The translations under genes and the position numbers were made by a program. The notes beneath the pieces are model-generated. The model saw only the letters and a program-made list of their open reading frames with translations, was not told where the DNA came from and ran no database searches. This document shows, one piece after another, positions 3,490 through 14,873 of a DNA stretch of 64,000 bases. Every line of letters starts with the position of its first letter. Position 1 is the first letter of the stretch. Source of the stretch: Akkermansia muciniphila (GTDB taxonomy: Bacteria; Verrucomicrobiota; Verrucomicrobiia; Verrucomicrobiales; Akkermansiaceae); NCBI GenBank assembly GCA_945890645.1, contig CAMDCV010000005.1:1-64000 (forward strand), read 5' to 3'.

Positions 3490-3518
3490 CAAGAAAAATG
3501 CCGCCCTAGGGCGGCATT
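3490..3518 (-). terminator. Intrinsic terminator after the 3535-4539 gene
   Basis: A perfect 22-base palindrome at 3497-3518 (AATGCCGCC-CTAG-GGCGGCATT in halves) is followed on the - strand by a T-rich run (TTTTTCTT). It sits between the stop of the small TPR gene and the kdsD start, separating the ExbBD/TPR operon from kdsD-CLC. Confidence 0.8.
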
Positions 3519-3534
3519 GGGAGCATTACCGGCA

Positions 3535-4539
3535 TTACCCTTCCTTTTTCACCTCAGGTGTTTCCTCCTTCGGTTTTTCAGGCTCGGGTTTGGTAATGTT
3601 AGGTTTGAACTTCAACAAAGGAACAAACTGGCTGGGCAATTTTTTGCCACCACCGAGCGTCAGATCATAAAGCGCAGCCACCGACGCCGCTTCCTGCAGA
3701 TGCATATAGCCGGTGGAATTTTTATTCTCATCTTCAGTGCCCCAGAGTTTGATCGCCATTTGCACTTCCTCATTTGCCTGATGGATGCGCATCACTGCCT
3801 GAGCCGCTTGATCAGCGATTTCTTCTGTGGCGCCGATGTCCGCTACCATGGCTGTATTAAAAGCGTTCAGAGCTTTCGATGGCTGCTTCAAAGCTTCATA
3901 GGCATGACCCACACAGAATGCGATTTGCGCGCGCTGGTAAGAAGGGATTTTTTCTTGCAAACGGGCTTCGCCCAAAGCAGCGAGACGATCCCATGACTTT
4001 GTGCGCAACGCATCCCAGAAAACATAGATTTCCAATTGGCTGATGTGGTGCTCGCGTGTCAAACCATCCTTGCGGAAGCCCTCCAGTGCTTTCGCCAATC
4101 CTTCCAAATCACCGAGACGACGCATGCACTCCATCTCGTAAAAGGCACCCAAGGTAGAATAGTTGTTATCCAAAGCGCTGGTCGGTTTGTAGGCAACCTT
4201 CGCCTGTGCGAACAATTCCTTCGCTTCTGCATACTTGCGCCCCTGATAGAGTTCCATCGCATCGCGAAACATTTTGGGTTCCAGCAAATAGACCGAGCTC
4301 AATTCCGATAGATTCATGTCCTCGGTATCGAGACCTTGGGCAGTCGTTTTGTAGCGGATCTGCGTTTTCGTAGCGGCAATGATAAAGACATTGTCAGAGG
4401 TGCCGTCATCGTAGATCAGCATCGCGGGTGCTTGCTGCGCAGCCGCAGCAGCCGGGGCGGCAGGGGCAGCGGGAGCCTGAGCATGAACCGATGCACTGAG
4501 CGCTAGGGCTGTGATCGCAAGAGAGAAAATGGTTTTCAT
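3535..4539 (-). CDS. Exported TPR-containing protein with Ala/Pro-rich N-terminus
   Basis: A 334-residue protein with a signal peptide (cleavage near ASVHA-Q), an Ala/Pro-rich linker at residues 22-40, a small beta-rich segment, then helical tetratricopeptide-like repeats (for example 'GRKYAEAKELFAQA' and 'AFCVGHAYEALKQPSKALNAF'). The C-terminus is Lys/Glu/Pro-rich. It lies 30 bp downstream of the 996-residue TPR gene and ends at a terminator, so it closes the ExbBD-TPR cluster. It probably acts in the periplasm as a scaffold for partners of the ExbB/ExbD motor. The export signal and repeats are seen directly; the function is inferred only from context. Confidence 0.8.
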   Translation of the reverse strand: MKTIFSLAITALALSASVHAQAPAAPAAPAAAAAQQAPAMLIYDDGTSDNVFIIAATKTQIRYKTTAQGLDTEDMNLSELSSVYLLEPKMFRDAMELYQGRKYAEAKELFAQAKVAYKPTSALDNNYSTLGAFYEMECMRRLGDLEGLAKALEGFRKDGLTREHHISQLEIYVFWDALRTKSWDRLAALGEARLQEKIPSYQRAQIAFCVGHAYEALKQPSKALNAFNTAMVADIGATEEIADQAAQAVMRIHQANEEVQMAIKLWGTEDENKNSTGYMHLQEAASVAALYDLTLGGGKKLPSQFVPLLKFKPNITKPEPEKPKEETPEVKKEG

Positions 4540-4569
4540 AATAATGATTCGTTGGGTTGATTAGGATGA

Positions 4570-7560
4570 TTATTTGCCTTCCAATTCTTTCTTCTGCTGT
4601 GCTTGGGACTTGATGCCAGGGCGGGCCTCATACTCCTTCACAAGATCTTCGATGTCATTCCACATCTCTTTTTCTTCTTGGCTCATCTTGTCGTAAATGC
4701 GTCGTGTGGAATCAATGTAATTAAAACCACCGTTGTAGGCACCCTGACGATCGCCTGGTTTCCCATCAACGCCGGCAGCGTCACGTTCCCAGAGCAATTC
4801 CATCCAACGTTTGCACGCAGGGGCGGAGTATTGGATGTTACCCCGCATGTTACCGAAGCAGATCTGCGAATAGCTGAAGATCGCATCGTTAATGGAATTT
4901 GATTTCTCATACGACTGCGCCAGTAGCATGTTCACCGCACCAGAATAGACATTGAAGTTGTTTGTCTTGCGATCCAAATAAACCTTCGCTTGCTCGTTCA
5001 CCTTGGACCATTCGCCTTTGGCTGCTAAGAGCTCGATTTTACGATACAATGCCCGTTCCTTTTGATTTTTCTTTTCGGCGTTTTCAAAAATCTCCGTCAA
5101 GTCTTTGATGCCGGTATCGAGGTCTGCCGGGGTTTTGCTACGGCCGAGAATGTCAGCACGACCGAACATGGCCTCGAACTTGTAACCACCGTCTTTGCGA
5201 TTGAGCGCTTCGGTGTAGTAATCCAATGCCTCGCGAGGTGCACCCGTTTTTTCCCGGATGAAGTCACCTACTCGCACGAGAATGAATGATGTGAGGTCTT
5301 TCGGAGTGAACTCGACTTTCAGCTCGTTGAACAAAACTTTCACCATGGCTTCTGCCTTGCTACGTTCTGCATCTTCCTTGGCATTTTTCGAGACTTCCTC
5401 AAACACGCCAATCACCGCCATGCGCAGAAGTGCACGGGCGACCACGTCTTTGGCTTTGATTTTCGGGAAATTATAGTAGTGCTCTTTCAGCTCTTCGGGT
5501 GAGTGTTTTGTTAGGTAAAATTCGGTGTAAGAACCAATCGCCTCTTCCAAACCTTGTGACATAGGATCGCCGGCCATTTCCGCGATCACGTCGCGCAAGC
5601 GCTCCAAACCTTCTTCGCCGCGCTCGACAGCATCCATGGCATAAATTCCAGCCACGGCCGCTTGCGTACGATACGGTGAACCATCTGCATATTCTTTCCA
5701 AAACTTATCAATCCATGGCACAGCGTCTTTGATGCGGGGATTCGGTTCTTTGTTAATCTGTTTCTCACCCAGCATGGCGATCAGCAGATAAACCGATTCA
5801 CTTGCCACAATACGTGCAGCACGGCGTTCCGCGAGTTCGAAACCTTTTTTGTAATACGTTTCCGCTTCATCTCGATTGTTTTCCGCCAAAAGCACATTGC
5901 CTTTGAGGTTGAAAGCAAGATCGAGAACTTCGGTTTGAGGGAATTCTTTTTCCAGGCGATTCAGCTTTTCCAAAGCGGGGGCATATTCGCTCTCTGCATA
6001 GTGGCAGTTCGCCCGGTCATATAAAGCGAAGGGGAGATATGGATTTTTTGCCGCTTCAGGATACTCTTTCAAGAATGCATCCAACAGCACTGCTGCTTTA
6101 ACGAACTCTTGCAGTTTCGCCATGTTCGAACCTTGCAAGAACAAAGCAGCCTGGCGGAACTTCGACTGGCCATACATGGTCACGTGCTGATCAAGATAAG
6201 GCTGGGCCACATCGTATTGACCCTCGTAGTAATACGAACCGCCGAGAACGTGCAAGCAGATATCATGCTGCTCTGTATTCTTGTCCAATTTTTCGATGAT
6301 GACCGTTGCGACCTCGATGCACTTTTTGTATTCACCTTCATAGAAAAGCGAAGTAAGCATCATGCGGCGCACTGCCGGAACATGTTCTGAAGAAGGAAAC
6401 GCTTTGAGGAAAATTTGGCCATACTTTTCAGTAATCAACACCTCGCCGACCACGGAGCTCGTACGCACAAGTTGGAACAAATTGTTCTCACGCTTCTCAT
6501 GTTTGGGATAATACAATTCCAAGTTTTCGTAGGCAGCGAAAGCCCCACGCACGTTGCCATTGATTTCATGGATGTAGGCGAGTGCTAGCAACTGAGTGAT
6601 TTCAGGTTGCTTATTTTCTTTGACCGATTTGCTAACGGACTCTTCCCCTGCTTTTAATTTGTCAGCAGTGATGGTGCGTGTGCCATCCAGCACGCCCTTG
6701 CGCTTGCCGATCATTTGCATACGAGCTTTGATATCTTCCATAGTAACCTCCGATGGTGCCACCATCTGATACAAAACAATGCAAGCGCGTTCCATCTGCG
6801 CACTGTAAGCGTCGTGCGCAAGTTTCAAAAACAGGCGATTGAACTCCTGCATTTCAAAGGGCTCGATCGTGATGTCTGACCGGTTTTTACTGATAAAGTC
6901 GAGGATCGATTGTTCGTTGTTTTTTTCGATCGCAGCGTTCACAAAAGCTTGGAATCCGGCCACAATGCCTGCATCGGGAGTGGGAAACACCTCTTTATTC
7001 TTGATGGCAATTTCGAGGTTTTCCATACCCTCGGGCAGTTTGGCCAGCTTGAAATAGCAGATGCAGAGGTTGATATGGAAGGGGCCTCTTTGATAAACGT
7101 CCTTGCCGCGCTCCTTGCTGCGCTCTTCCAGGAACTTTTTATACATGCGGATCGCCTCTTCAAACTTCTCTGCGCCGAGTGCGGCATCGCCGCCTTTGAG
7201 CAAAGCCATTTTGTGATAGATGTTGCCCGCACCGTCTTTCTCCGGGGGGAACTCTTTGTAGCAGGTCTCAAAAGCCTTCATGGCTTCGTCGAACTGATTC
7301 AATTTGCTGTGGCAAATCCCTTTGCGGTAATACAACACACCGATTTTTGATCCGTAAAGCTGTTTGATATTGGGCTTGGCGCAGGCCTGCGTCAATTGAT
7401 CCAGAGCTTCCGCCCATTTGCCGGCCTCCATGTTAATGAGGGAATTGGTCACCAGTTCATCGAGACTGGCACCTTGCTGGGCCTGAGCAAAAGGTGCGCC
7501 GACAAGAGCAACCGTAGCACCCAATAGGCTGCAGCGGTGAATAAAAGAAGGAGTGTTCAT
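4570..7560 (-). CDS. Large exported tetratricopeptide-repeat protein
   Basis: A 996-residue protein with a signal peptide (cleavage near APFAQA-Q) and TPR-type helix pairs over almost its whole length. Examples are 'YYRKGICHSKLNQFDEAMKAFETC', 'CHYAESEYAPALEKLNRLEKEFP' and 'GNVLLAENNRDEAETYYKKGFELA'. No catalytic domain is visible, so it is probably a periplasmic protein-protein scaffold. It is transcribed with the smaller TPR gene and lies downstream of exbB-exbD-exbD, from which it is separated by a terminator-like hairpin at 7664-7713. TPR proteins beside ExbB/ExbD-type motors are known in other phyla, for example with the Agl gliding motor of myxobacteria. The job here is not known. Confidence 0.85.
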   Translation of the reverse strand: MNTPSFIHRCSLLGATVALVGAPFAQAQQGASLDELVTNSLINMEAGKWAEALDQLTQACAKPNIKQLYGSKIGVLYYRKGICHSKLNQFDEAMKAFETCYKEFPPEKDGAGNIYHKMALLKGGDAALGAEKFEEAIRMYKKFLEERSKERGKDVYQRGPFHINLCICYFKLAKLPEGMENLEIAIKNKEVFPTPDAGIVAGFQAFVNAAIEKNNEQSILDFISKNRSDITIEPFEMQEFNRLFLKLAHDAYSAQMERACIVLYQMVAPSEVTMEDIKARMQMIGKRKGVLDGTRTITADKLKAGEESVSKSVKENKQPEITQLLALAYIHEINGNVRGAFAAYENLELYYPKHEKRENNLFQLVRTSSVVGEVLITEKYGQIFLKAFPSSEHVPAVRRMMLTSLFYEGEYKKCIEVATVIIEKLDKNTEQHDICLHVLGGSYYYEGQYDVAQPYLDQHVTMYGQSKFRQAALFLQGSNMAKLQEFVKAAVLLDAFLKEYPEAAKNPYLPFALYDRANCHYAESEYAPALEKLNRLEKEFPQTEVLDLAFNLKGNVLLAENNRDEAETYYKKGFELAERRAARIVASESVYLLIAMLGEKQINKEPNPRIKDAVPWIDKFWKEYADGSPYRTQAAVAGIYAMDAVERGEEGLERLRDVIAEMAGDPMSQGLEEAIGSYTEFYLTKHSPEELKEHYYNFPKIKAKDVVARALLRMAVIGVFEEVSKNAKEDAERSKAEAMVKVLFNELKVEFTPKDLTSFILVRVGDFIREKTGAPREALDYYTEALNRKDGGYKFEAMFGRADILGRSKTPADLDTGIKDLTEIFENAEKKNQKERALYRKIELLAAKGEWSKVNEQAKVYLDRKTNNFNVYSGAVNMLLAQSYEKSNSINDAIFSYSQICFGNMRGNIQYSAPACKRWMELLWERDAAGVDGKPGDRQGAYNGGFNYIDSTRRIYDKMSQEEKEMWNDIEDLVKEYEARPGIKSQAQQKKELEGK

Positions 7561-7663
7561 AGCGAGGTATTTTGGATTGTTTTTATGATACTACTGCCAT
7601 CAGAGTCGGCAAGTAAGATCGTAGGGAGTAACGAAGAAGAAGGAAAAAATCTTGGAGAAGAAA

Positions 7664-7713
7664 TAAAAAACCGGGGCGATCAGACCGCAGGGACGCGGAC
7701 GAGCGGCCCCGGT
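7664..7713 (-). terminator. Terminator or attenuator between exbD and the large TPR gene
   Basis: An 8-bp GC-rich stem pairs 7670-7677 with 7706-7713 around a 28-base loop. On the - strand it is followed by TTTTTATTT, the layout of an intrinsic terminator. It would reduce or stop read-through from the exb genes into the TPR genes. Confidence 0.65.
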
Positions 7714-7730
7714 GGGAAAATAGAATGGGT

Positions 7731-8195
7731 TCAGTCCACCAAGTCCGTGAATGTCACGGAGCTGATGCCAGCACCAACGAGTGCATTGAGAACGTCGATG
7801 ACACGTTGTTGATTGGCACCGGGATCCACCCACATTTGTACTAGGGGCTTCTTGTCACCCGAACTGGCACCTGCGACGTAAAGCGTCAACTGCTGTGTCA
7901 GCAAAGGCAGGACCCTTGAACCAGTGTCAGTGTCCAGCATCTCTTGGCTACTACCAGCACCCGTGTAAATCGCACCATTAGCATCGACCTTGATGAAAAG
8001 CGGATCGATATCAGGCATGTCTGCATCACTGGGCGCAGAAGAAGGTAGAGCGAGAGGAACATCTACTTCTTTTTTCTGAATCGTCGTCGCAACAAGGAAG
8101 TAAATCAGCAATAGAAAGCAGACGTCAATCAGCGAGGAAATGTCTAAGCCAGGATTGGCTTCTTCGTCTTGCTGGTATTTGCGGTGGCGGGCCAT
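7731..8195 (-). CDS. ExbD/TolR-family proton-channel subunit (second copy)
   Basis: A 154-residue protein with a short cytoplasmic N-terminus, one membrane helix carrying the essential Asp (SLIDVCFLLLIYFLV, about 21-35), and a periplasmic domain. With ExbB it would form an inner-membrane proton-driven motor that moves a periplasmic partner. The domain is divergent from the other ExbD copy in the operon (different loop, no long basic segment), so the two are probably distinct subunits rather than a recent duplication. It lies 18 bp after the first exbD. Confidence 0.87.
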   Translation of the reverse strand: MARHRKYQQDEEANPGLDISSLIDVCFLLLIYFLVATTIQKKEVDVPLALPSSAPSDADMPDIDPLFIKVDANGAIYTGAGSSQEMLDTDTGSRVLPLLTQQLTLYVAGASSGDKKPLVQMWVDPGANQQRVIDVLNALVGAGISSVTFTDLVD

Positions 8196-8213
8196 AGTAA
8201 GTAAAATTGGGAA

Positions 8214-8657
8214 TTATTTATCAGTAACGTAGGTGGCAAACATCACCTGTTCGACTCCTGCTTTCGCAGAGATTGCGATGACTTTGCGCGAATATTTGAA
8301 CACGGCGTCTTTGTCGCCACGCAGGTGCAACTTAGAACGGTAACTGCGAAGATCGTTCGCCTCTTTAGCTTTCAAAACCAACTCAAAAATATCTTCATCG
8401 GTCTCAAGGACAACTCCTTGTTCCGATTTGTAGGAACCGTCTTTGTATACGTTCACCACGATCCGACCGTTTTTCTCGTCCTGTTTCTTGCCATAACTGG
8501 CAACCGGCGGTTTGACATCGGAGTCTTGCTTGACCACGATCTGGCTGGAATTGACAACGAAGAAAATGAGCAACAGGAACACCATGTCGATCATCGACGA
8601 CATGTCCAAGGCGCATTCTTCTTCAGCTGCTGCAGACTTGCGAAGTTTGGATGACAT
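8214..8657 (-). CDS. ExbD/TolR-family proton-channel subunit (first copy)
   Basis: A 147-residue single-pass membrane protein. The N-terminal MSSMIDMVFLLLIFFVV helix contains the conserved proton-carrying Asp. It is followed by a Lys/Asp-rich linker and a periplasmic domain ending in 'AGVEQVMFATYVTDK', similar to the ExbD/TolR fold. It is flanked by exbB upstream (80 bp gap containing a strong hairpin) and the second exbD downstream. It probably partners with the ExbB protein encoded at 8738-9535. Confidence 0.88.
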   Translation of the reverse strand: MSSKLRKSAAAEEECALDMSSMIDMVFLLLIFFVVNSSQIVVKQDSDVKPPVASYGKKQDEKNGRIVVNVYKDGSYKSEQGVVLETDEDIFELVLKAKEANDLRSYRSKLHLRGDKDAVFKYSRKVIAISAKAGVEQVMFATYVTDK

Positions 8658-8696
8658 AAGGTTTTTATAGTGGAAGGTGGGAGATTGAGGGATTGC

Positions 8697-8727
8697 GCCC
8701 GCACTCGCTCAGTGAGCGAGTGCGGGC
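8697..8727. promoter_or_regulatory. Near-perfect hairpin between exbB and exbD
   Basis: A 15-bp inverted repeat (GCCCGCACTCGCTCA and its complement) is separated by one base and lies in the 80-bp exbB-exbD gap. No T-tract follows on either strand, so it is not a classical terminator. It may be an mRNA processing or 3'-stabilising hairpin that raises ExbB over ExbD, or a repeated palindrome. Confidence 0.55.
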
Positions 8728-8737
8728 ATCAATGAAA

Positions 8738-9535
8738 TCAAACGGCAATGCCTTCTGGAATCTTAGCGTAAATTGTATCAGCATTCACCGTAGCGGTGGC
8801 GGCATTCATCATGTCTTCGGCCGCTTTGATCGAATCGGCAGTAAGCGCATTAAGTCGGTTCTTGAAGAAGAAGAACATGGCGATACTTGGAATCGCGTTG
8901 AACAGACCCCACAGAGTCGTCAACAAAGCCACCGAGATCTGACCGGCCAAGAGGGCTGGGTCAGCGGAACCAGTTTCAGCGAGAACACCGAAGGCGCCCA
9001 CCATACCAATAACCGTTCCAGTCAGTCCAAGCATCGGGGATGCCTGAGCGCAGAGCGAAATATAGTTAATCCATGTCATCGACTTGCGCGACTCATTCGT
9101 GCTGAAGTCTGCCATGGCATCTTCCACCTGATCGCGACCGAGATCTTCCGGGCGAGTGGCATCAATGTTGGGGAAAGAGTAGGCAACCAAGCGACCGAGG
9201 TAGCTGGGATGGGAAGCGGCCAACTCGATAGCCGAGCGCACGCGCACATTTGCCATGTGATCCATCAGAGCCATTTTGAGGTCATCTGGGCAATACTTGG
9301 CCTTCGTCAAATTCATAAAGTTGTAAACCGTGAGCGCGATGAAGGCGATAATGGCCACACCGATGAACAGCATGGTTGGTCCGCCATCAATGATCCACTT
9401 CTGCAAAGCGTTTTTCTCTGCAGCAGCAGGAGTGGCTCCAGCAGCTTGCGCAAACAAGGCAGGCATTGTGACAAGACCTGTGGTGAGAATTGCGGCAGCC
9501 ATCTTGGTGCGCGAGGTTACGAGTTTTTCAATCAT
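8738..9535 (-). CDS. exbB: MotA/TolQ/ExbB-family proton channel protein
   Basis: A 265-residue inner-membrane protein, the pentameric stator of ExbB/ExbD-type motors. I chose the ATG at 9535 because it gives an N-terminal export-like hydrophobic segment (AAAILTTGLVTMPALFAQA). A longer in-frame start at 9679 would prefix unrelated Cys-rich sequence. A second hydrophobic segment follows (TMLFIGVAIIAFIALTVY). The hallmark helix pair is 'ASPMLGLTGTVIGMVGAF' and 'AGQISVALLTTLWGLFNAIPSIAMF', with the conserved polar residues of the ion path. It is the first gene of the exbB-exbD-exbD-TPR-TPR cluster and is divergent from uxaC. Confidence 0.92.
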   Translation of the reverse strand: MIEKLVTSRTKMAAAILTTGLVTMPALFAQAAGATPAAAEKNALQKWIIDGGPTMLFIGVAIIAFIALTVYNFMNLTKAKYCPDDLKMALMDHMANVRVRSAIELAASHPSYLGRLVAYSFPNIDATRPEDLGRDQVEDAMADFSTNESRKSMTWINYISLCAQASPMLGLTGTVIGMVGAFGVLAETGSADPALLAGQISVALLTTLWGLFNAIPSIAMFFFFKNRLNALTADSIKAAEDMMNAATATVNADTIYAKIPEGIAV

Positions 9536-14515: not shown

Positions 14516-14867
14516 GGGGGCGTTCTGGTTTCGACGGGATGTTTCACGCGCTGACTGCACGTGGAGGTTGATCGGTTGGCCTCCTTAATAGCCGATCAAA
14601 AAAAATAAATGCAAACTCTAACGAGCTCGCACTTGCTGCTTAATTGACGGCAACGTCTGAATCCTGACGCCTGTTGGGGAGGAAGGCGACACTTAACAGG
14701 CTGGGTATGAAGTCGGGGAACCGGATGGATTGCTGAGAAACTACAGGTTCCTAGGGGAGTAACGCCGCATGAGGGCCGAGCCACTTCGAAATACCGACCT
14801 CATGCTAAACGTGTAGAAGTCAGTGCCGACGGCGTTTCGGACAGGGGTTCGACTCCCCTCGCCTCCA
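14516..14867 (+). ncRNA. ssrA: Transfer-messenger RNA (tmRNA)
   Basis: This RNA rescues stalled ribosomes by trans-translation. The 5' end GGGGGCGTTCTGGTTTCGAC and the 3' part with the T-loop GTTCGACTCCCC and acceptor strand CGCCTCC pair as in a tRNA(Ala)-like domain, with A at 14867 as the discriminator base. The next bases are CTT, so CCA is not encoded and must be added. The tag reading frame at 14612-14644 is GCA AAC TCT AAC GAG CTC GCA CTT GCT GCT TAA, giving ANSNELALAA, with the usual LAA end recognised by ClpXP-type proteases. It is one-piece and not permuted. Confidence 0.96.
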
Positions 14868-14873
14868 CTTGCT

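Follow-up and report, generated by a model that had tools for sequence, protein, structure and literature searches.

A probable MUL1-type ExbB-ExbD-ExbD and TPR gene cluster recurs across the Akkermansiaceae and their order, and alternates with a related motor set

The founding paper on MUL1, the mucin-utilisation locus of Akkermansia muciniphila, is said to be that of Davey (2023), which reportedly assigned Mul1A and gave results on the exb genes; we take the name Mul1A to denote the large TPR protein. MUL genes encode pili and periplasmic complexes and are required for the internal accumulation of mucin products, according to the available part of PMC12418764. The partial text of PMC12928651 adds that they are expressed independently of mucin and confer a competitive edge in the gut, and a figure legend in the accessible portion of PMC11790493 sorts enzymes by 'Mul1A association'. 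According to a recent study, aquatic Akkermansiaceae lack MUL1 synteny and the locus may be specific to mucin (PMC13174399, 2026); the same study gives Luteolibacter as predominant in freshwater. In Fibrobacter, the genes FSU_2397, 2398 and 2400-2403 (TPR, TPR, ExbB, ExbD, ExbD, TonB family) rise on cellulose, and the TPR protein FSU_2397 is reported in complex with cellulases (excerpted text of PMC6851124).

We analysed a stretch of DNA of 64,000 nucleotides (the window) in which an initial annotation had described one ExbB, two different ExbDs and two exported TPR proteins. All five were confirmed on one strand, the minus strand, with coordinates to the base. The first gene encodes an ExbB/TolQ-like proton-channel subunit, hereafter type A (8738-9535; PF01618, 1.6e-22; ATG start codon at 9535). 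It is followed by ExbD1, the first ExbD/TolR subunit (8214-8657; PF02472, 1.2e-17), and by ExbD2, the second and divergent one (7731-8195; PF02472, 5.1e-17), both of which keep Asp24. Next come TPR996, an exported TPR solenoid of 996 residues (4570-7560; TPR families, TPR_2 2.4e-19), and TPR334, an exported TPR protein of 334 residues in which TPR_2 is found only below threshold (3535-4539; 1.2e-3). In terms of open reading frames the four successive gaps measure 80, 18, 170 and 30 bases. The most hydrophobic stretch of both TPR proteins is an N-terminal segment resembling a signal peptide. Upstream of ExbB lies the divergent gene uxaC. On the other side, a terminator-like hairpin with a perfect 9-pair stem (3497-3518, minus strand) sits 16 bases past the TPR334 stop, between this gene and the next, which encodes an SIS/CBS protein. 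The transcription unit therefore probably ends there; the hairpin is a consensus match, from a scan that gave 13 terminator-like sites against 8.9 in shuffles. Families for TonB, TolA, TolB, Pal, SusC and SusD were absent from the five cluster proteins and the two flanking proteins scanned, which bears out the earlier description of a cluster devoid of TonB, TolA, TolB and Pal. No carbohydrate enzyme, porin or receptor was found within the five genes. Elsewhere in the window (14516-14868) we noted an ordinary tmRNA gene with the tag ANSNELALAA.

TPR334 matches the NCBIfam model NF052542.1, "Mul1B family putative transporter subunit", at 248.2 bits (E 1.2e-73; cut-off 75), and all 25 homologues tested, which we chose among the loci already collected, match the same model at E <= 1e-5. 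The protein at the corresponding position in the Akkermansia locus L039 scores 291.8 bits. Seven Akkermansia loci carry the full five-gene order (L039, L044, L045, L049, L108, L109 and L110), L039 with the same order and strand. Because TPR334 and its homologues match the Mul1B model and the Akkermansia loci share the gene order, there is a strong case that the cluster is this organism's version of MUL1. TPR996 gave no Mul1A match in NCBIfam; its homologue adjoins the Mul1B protein in L039, and by position it is the probable counterpart of Mul1A. Compared with their counterparts in three Akkermansia loci, the two TPR proteins show 20 to 29% identity. Amuc_0546 is listed, going by order, as a biopolymer transporter in the available part of PMC11480725, which fits an ExbD at that place, and Amuc_0543, among the vesicle-enriched proteins in the partial text of PMC13335810, would be the TPR334 counterpart if the numbering runs as we suppose. 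Against a MUL1-type reading stands the description of MUL1 as Sus-like in PMC13174399, which is unlike the content of the cluster.

Structural comparison was less informative. The AlphaFold2 model of TPR996 (mean pLDDT 84.8, pTM 0.49) is a single long solenoid, helical almost throughout residues 33-995, and that of TPR334 (mean pLDDT 79.3) has five strands in residues 37-85 followed by 12 helices; the models were built on few sequences, six and five respectively. A Foldseek search with TPR334 returned nothing below E 1e-3, the best hit being MamA at 9.5e-3, and VIA-align gave generic TPR proteins with a best Z of 12.6, within the range that repeats may give by common arrangement. TPR996 matched many helical solenoids at low TM-score, including a flagellar periplasmic scaffold of Campylobacter. 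With only generic TPR and solenoid relatives, no function was drawn from fold.

In order to describe how widely the cluster occurs, we turn to its distribution. The complete gene order is found in 46 of 60 Akkermansiaceae genomes (42 of 53 loci in one neighbourhood scan, and four read separately in G126, G129, G132 and G152; G131, with a short ExbD2 frame of 101 residues, is scored as complete) and, beyond these, in 23 of 29 loci from the taxonomic order, a set that includes three Akkermansia loci and counts G047 twice. The recurrence is therefore far beyond chance. Incomplete at the order level are G009, G006, G014, G086, G075 and G005, several of them at contig ends. Among the matches listed in a wider contig scan, five of 80 loci show the full order, and one of these lies on the contig that also contains L049. 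A Luteolibacter sp. and an uncultured Verrucomicrobia isolate are among the named records in which all five genes stand in this order. This spread conflicts with the distribution given in PMC13174399, unless MUL1 was defined there by further genes. Strong matches to the type A ExbB occur in 48 of the 60 family genomes and TPR996 in 57; in a larger set of 260 Akkermansiaceae genomes, type A was found in 190, covering 14 of 16 genera.

The 14 family genomes with an incomplete order fall into eight with TPR996 and no motor, three cut at contig ends (G112, G145 and G154, of which G145 and G154 are counted as incomplete) and three in which TPR996 gave no match (G128, G113 and G022). G022, an Akkermansia genome that is 99% complete, has neither the type A nor the type B ExbB described below. 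Each of the 48 motor-bearing genomes contains TPR996, which in G145 lies on a different contig from the motor. The expectation that the TPR genes co-occur with the exb genes thus holds for 48 of the 57 genomes with TPR996; of the other nine, eight truly lack the motor and one (G112) is cut by its contig. G112, 72% complete and beginning inside the TPR996 gene at the start of a contig, was excluded from the motorless set, which consists of G106, G064, G077, G100, G094, G103, G138 and G144. TPR334 lies beside TPR996 in four of these (G106, G077, G103 and G138). In G106, which belongs to the window's genus, both TPR genes are full length, and less than 300 bases separate uxaC from TPR996, leaving no room for motor genes. 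In three others (G077, G094 and G144) the TPR996 frame is shortened to 482-539 residues, as if decaying. A stop in the TPR996 match of G103 was dropped as a sign of decay, since it is located at the very end of the gene. These eight genomes are the chief evidence against a tight machine.

The two ExbD subunits are distinct lines. In a comparison of 18 loci, ExbD1 formed a single clade (support 0.985), and ExbD2 formed a separate one that also takes in an orphan copy encoded elsewhere in the window genome (support 0.936); the proton-channel Asp is retained in 18 of 18 ExbD1 and 18 of 18 ExbD2 sequences. Since the two fall into separate clades, the pair predates the compared loci, and these come from several families of the order. 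By analogy with ExbBD and AglRQS, a 5:2 motor with an ExbD heterodimer would be the natural reading. The orphan ExbD2 copy (L194:6354-6818, that is G000:C7:70368-70784 of the window genome) scores 180 bits against the ExbD2 profile, and no ExbB was recognised in the 13 kb read around it.

The window genome (3.82 Mb, 97.6% complete) holds several other motors. A search for TonB-like proteins elsewhere in it, as proposed earlier, found two TonB genes by their TonB_C matches, at C9 and C11, each with its own ExbB/ExbD, and the view that the cluster is a motor with dedicated TPR partners, distinct from the TonB systems, was borne out. The same applies to relatives: TonB_C was absent within 75 kb on the same contig in the 48 family genomes with this ExbB, and the nearest TonB-dependent receptor among the matches listed is about 18 kb from ExbB (in G120). 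At C2 (L191), an ExbB-ExbD pair followed by an 821-residue TPR protein forms a second TPR-linked motor. Another set at C13:73000-90000 (L197) has two ExbDs and a 2185-residue TPR/BamD-like protein, and also encodes a short membrane protein with an S/T-x3-H motif and a DUF4159 protein. Further motor sets are present besides those at C2, C9, C11 and C13.

All eight motorless genomes with TPR996 carry a diverged motor, type B. An ExbB scoring at least 446 bits against the type-B profile is present in nine of the 60 family genomes, namely these eight and G128, with all others at or below 133 bits. The type-A profile gives scores of 159 bits in G094 and 146 bits in G144, matches that we counted as another ExbB; G094 holds in addition, on another contig, a 62-residue piece 60% identical to the window ExbB, perhaps a remnant. 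Clusters with the order TPR-ExbB-ExbD-ExbD were noted at L219-L222, L224, L226, L227 and L232, most of them with a second small TPR gene. L223 and L225 were omitted from the type-B alignment, their ExbB being 27-29% like the rest. In the eight type-B loci read, among which that of G094 was not included, ExbB and its own ExbDs follow a large TPR gene; the TPR334 profile recognised a small TPR gene in six of these loci. Of six small TPR proteins tested, four match the Mul1B model, at 30 bits or less, below its cut-off.

Among the 60 genomes, 48 have type A, nine have type B and none has both. In the set of 260, which contains the 60, the figures are 190 with type A, 59 with type B, six with both and 17 with neither, where 43 would be expected to have both by hypergeometric statistics that use no tree and ignore shared ancestry. 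Strict exclusion is rejected by the six dual genomes (G218, G239, G254, G276, G278 and G286), two of which are doubtful, G218 being 72% complete and G254 measuring 12.6 Mb with 6% contamination. The two types show strong avoidance of each other, short of exclusion. Type B is limited to three genera: type A, type B and both occur in 7, 2 and 0 of 10 genomes in genus g1, in 11, 8 and 1 of 18 in g3, and in 27, 49 and 5 of 73 in g4, to which G244 and G285 were assigned by handle order. In G128, of the window's genus, the site of the cluster is reduced to a gap of about 250 bases between the neighbouring SIS and uxaC genes; type B is located directly beyond uxaC and the next gene. The pattern looks like the replacement of one motor version by the other. 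Motor and scaffold are thus separable, eight of the 57 genomes with TPR996 having no type-A motor, although each of these carries type B.

TonB and TolA hold their motors by a kind of motif that can be written S/T-x3-H, the spacing being that of Ser16 and His20 of TonB. The rule and its spacing are our own definition. A protein anchored in the membrane and carrying this motif in its membrane segment was found in seven of the eight type-B loci, in the stretch read; the match in L232 was antisense and was dropped, so that seven of eight stands. Three of four such anchored proteins scanned are squalene-cyclase-like outside the membrane segment, and one of four has a vWA domain. For PVC transducers, the available part of PMC12204202 names an SHLS motif and a conserved His. 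No anchored S/T-x3-H candidate was found in the first 20 kb of the window, and under a loose rule, with hits unreviewed, the motif occurs in seven type-A loci out of 70, a set that includes the window. Of the 60 genomes, 54 have homologues of the type-B anchored protein, some Akkermansia among them, and we considered whether such a homologue, encoded elsewhere, might serve type A as transducer. Among 15 open frames from nine loci, including the window genome (G000), 11 have a membrane segment, and none of the 11 carries S/T-x3-H in it; these homologues were set aside as the transducer of type A, and a different unlinked protein may serve. At L237:1013-4188 (G000:C3), two membrane-anchored relatives of the type-B anchor lie in tandem, neither with the motif. 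It is conceivable, and we put it forward tentatively as the less probable case, that type A works as a 5:2 motor whose ExbDs form a heterodimer and which passes force straight to the secreted TPR solenoid, with no anchored transducer of the TonB/TolA kind, and which is evolutionarily interchangeable with the transducer-bearing type B. If so, motors would be swapped within genera, one ancestral polymer-import machine of the order would underlie both, and mucin uptake by Akkermansia would be a late specialisation.

The reading we favour, with reasonable though not high confidence, is that the cluster is a MUL1-type system in which the motor, acting through a TPR scaffold and without TonB, powers the import of large glycans or their handling in the periplasm. 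In this model ExbB, as an expected pentamer, and ExbD1-ExbD2, as an expected heterodimer, would assemble in the inner membrane into a 5:2 motor driven by protons. Its targets would be two periplasmic proteins, the long solenoid and the Mul1B-family protein, which may serve as scaffold and coupling arm and work together with carbohydrate enzymes. By moving or tensioning this scaffold, on which the enzymes would be held, the motor could carry large glycans through the outer membrane, or onward into stores in the periplasm. For this organism we infer the stoichiometry, the assembly, the contact between motor and TPR proteins, the path of force, the substrate and glycan uptake itself. The starting points are observed: gene content and order, membership of TPR334 in the Mul1B family, two retained Asp residues, old and separate ExbD lines, conservation across the order, and alternation with a related motor set. 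The initial annotation had proposed a force-driven process other than TonB uptake, perhaps movement of surface structures or maintenance of envelope integrity. Its first part stands, in that the dedicated motor has TPR partners of its own and is distinct from the TonB sets; the proposed roles are not supported as the likely ones. Glycan uptake is most likely the better reading, because of the Mul1B match, the same five genes in Akkermansia and the role of MUL in mucin accumulation given in the accessible text of PMC12418764.

A different use of the same parts would be a machine like AglRQS/Glt, in which the motor drags TPR-linked envelope complexes for gliding or the spreading of a surface polymer. 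The composition is that of M. xanthus, where, in the part available of PMC3169522, AglR, AglQ and AglS go with the exported TPR proteins GltD (1191 aa) and GltE (471 aa). TPR334 has no match to the NCBIfam GltE model NF033758 within E 1, no other Glt-like gene lies within the cluster, and the Mul1B match points to uptake and not to such movement, so that we regard this machine as unlikely. GltE was over the cut-off in neither the window genome nor five others; as a route to Myxococcus-type homologues the model was set aside, giving only sub-threshold matches in six of six genomes and likewise in 12 of 14 control genomes.

The motorless genomes suggest another arrangement, an enzyme scaffold with an optional motor, in which the TPR proteins would organise periplasmic carbohydrate enzymes and the motor merely position them. 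Retention of TPR996 without the type-A motor in eight genomes fits this, as do the full-length TPR genes of G106 with no space for motor genes between uxaC and TPR996. The presence of TPR996 in 48 of 48 motor genomes, its half-length frames in three of the eight motorless ones (G077, G094 and G144), as if decaying, and type B in all eight argue the other way and make an optional motor rather improbable. A Tol-like envelope-integrity system, with the TPR proteins replacing CpoB and the TolB-Pal part unlinked, is improbable: TPR996 has generic YbgF/CpoB and BamD matches and both ExbDs score best against TolR among the named models, but the YbgF/CpoB, BamD and TolR-type matches are all below the models' cut-offs, TolA, TolB and Pal are absent from the cluster, and the system seems to be dispensable, given that the 99% complete G022 lacks both types.

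MUL1 itself is already known, and the wider interest lies in the spread of the cluster and in the alternation of types A and B. The mucin locus of Akkermansia is present gene for gene in other genera of the family and in other families of the order; its uptake mechanism is therefore open to study in organisms that do not live in the gut, and mucin need not have been its origin. This bears on the current claim that MUL1 is an adaptation of the gut lineage. The comparison turns a gene list into a testable machine. The near-exclusive distribution of the two types supplies natural replacements with which to ask which part of the machine moves glycan, and also by what route a motor lacking TonB extends its action to the outer membrane.

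Compared with known systems, the cluster shares the ExbB/ExbD motor families with TonB-ExbB-ExbD, and differs in that neither TonB nor a receptor occurs among the proteins scanned in the cluster and at its flanks. With AglRQS and GltD/GltE of Myxococcus gliding, as described in the part consulted of PMC3169522, it shares one TolQ, two TolR and a large and a small exported TPR protein; the feature of a TolQ with two TolR-type subunits bearing the proton-channel Asp is present in the window cluster. Motor and TPR genes form one cluster here and separate clusters in Myxococcus (same source), and the GltE model finds no match. The PVC sets of TPR, tolQ-like, paired tolR-like and vWA transducer genes, in the excerpt of PMC12204202, likewise have one ExbB/TolQ, two different ExbD/TolR and TPR. 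Unlike these, the window cluster places its motor genes ahead of a pair of TPR genes and lacks a transducer, whether an anchored vWA protein or another kind; what that excerpt describes fits the type-B clusters better. FSU_2396-2403 of Fibrobacter succinogenes run TPR, TPR, ExbB, ExbD, ExbD by locus tag, a parallel by description, and include a TonB-family protein and OmpA, unlike the window cluster (partial text of PMC6851124). MUL1 of A. muciniphila is described in PMC13174399 as a Sus-like, mucin-specific adaptation, whereas the cluster has neither SusC nor SusD, the TPR sequences are distant (20-29% identity), and the window genome is placed in a genus other than Akkermansia; the two agree in a small TPR protein of the Mul1B family and in five genes that have the same order and strand as in L039.
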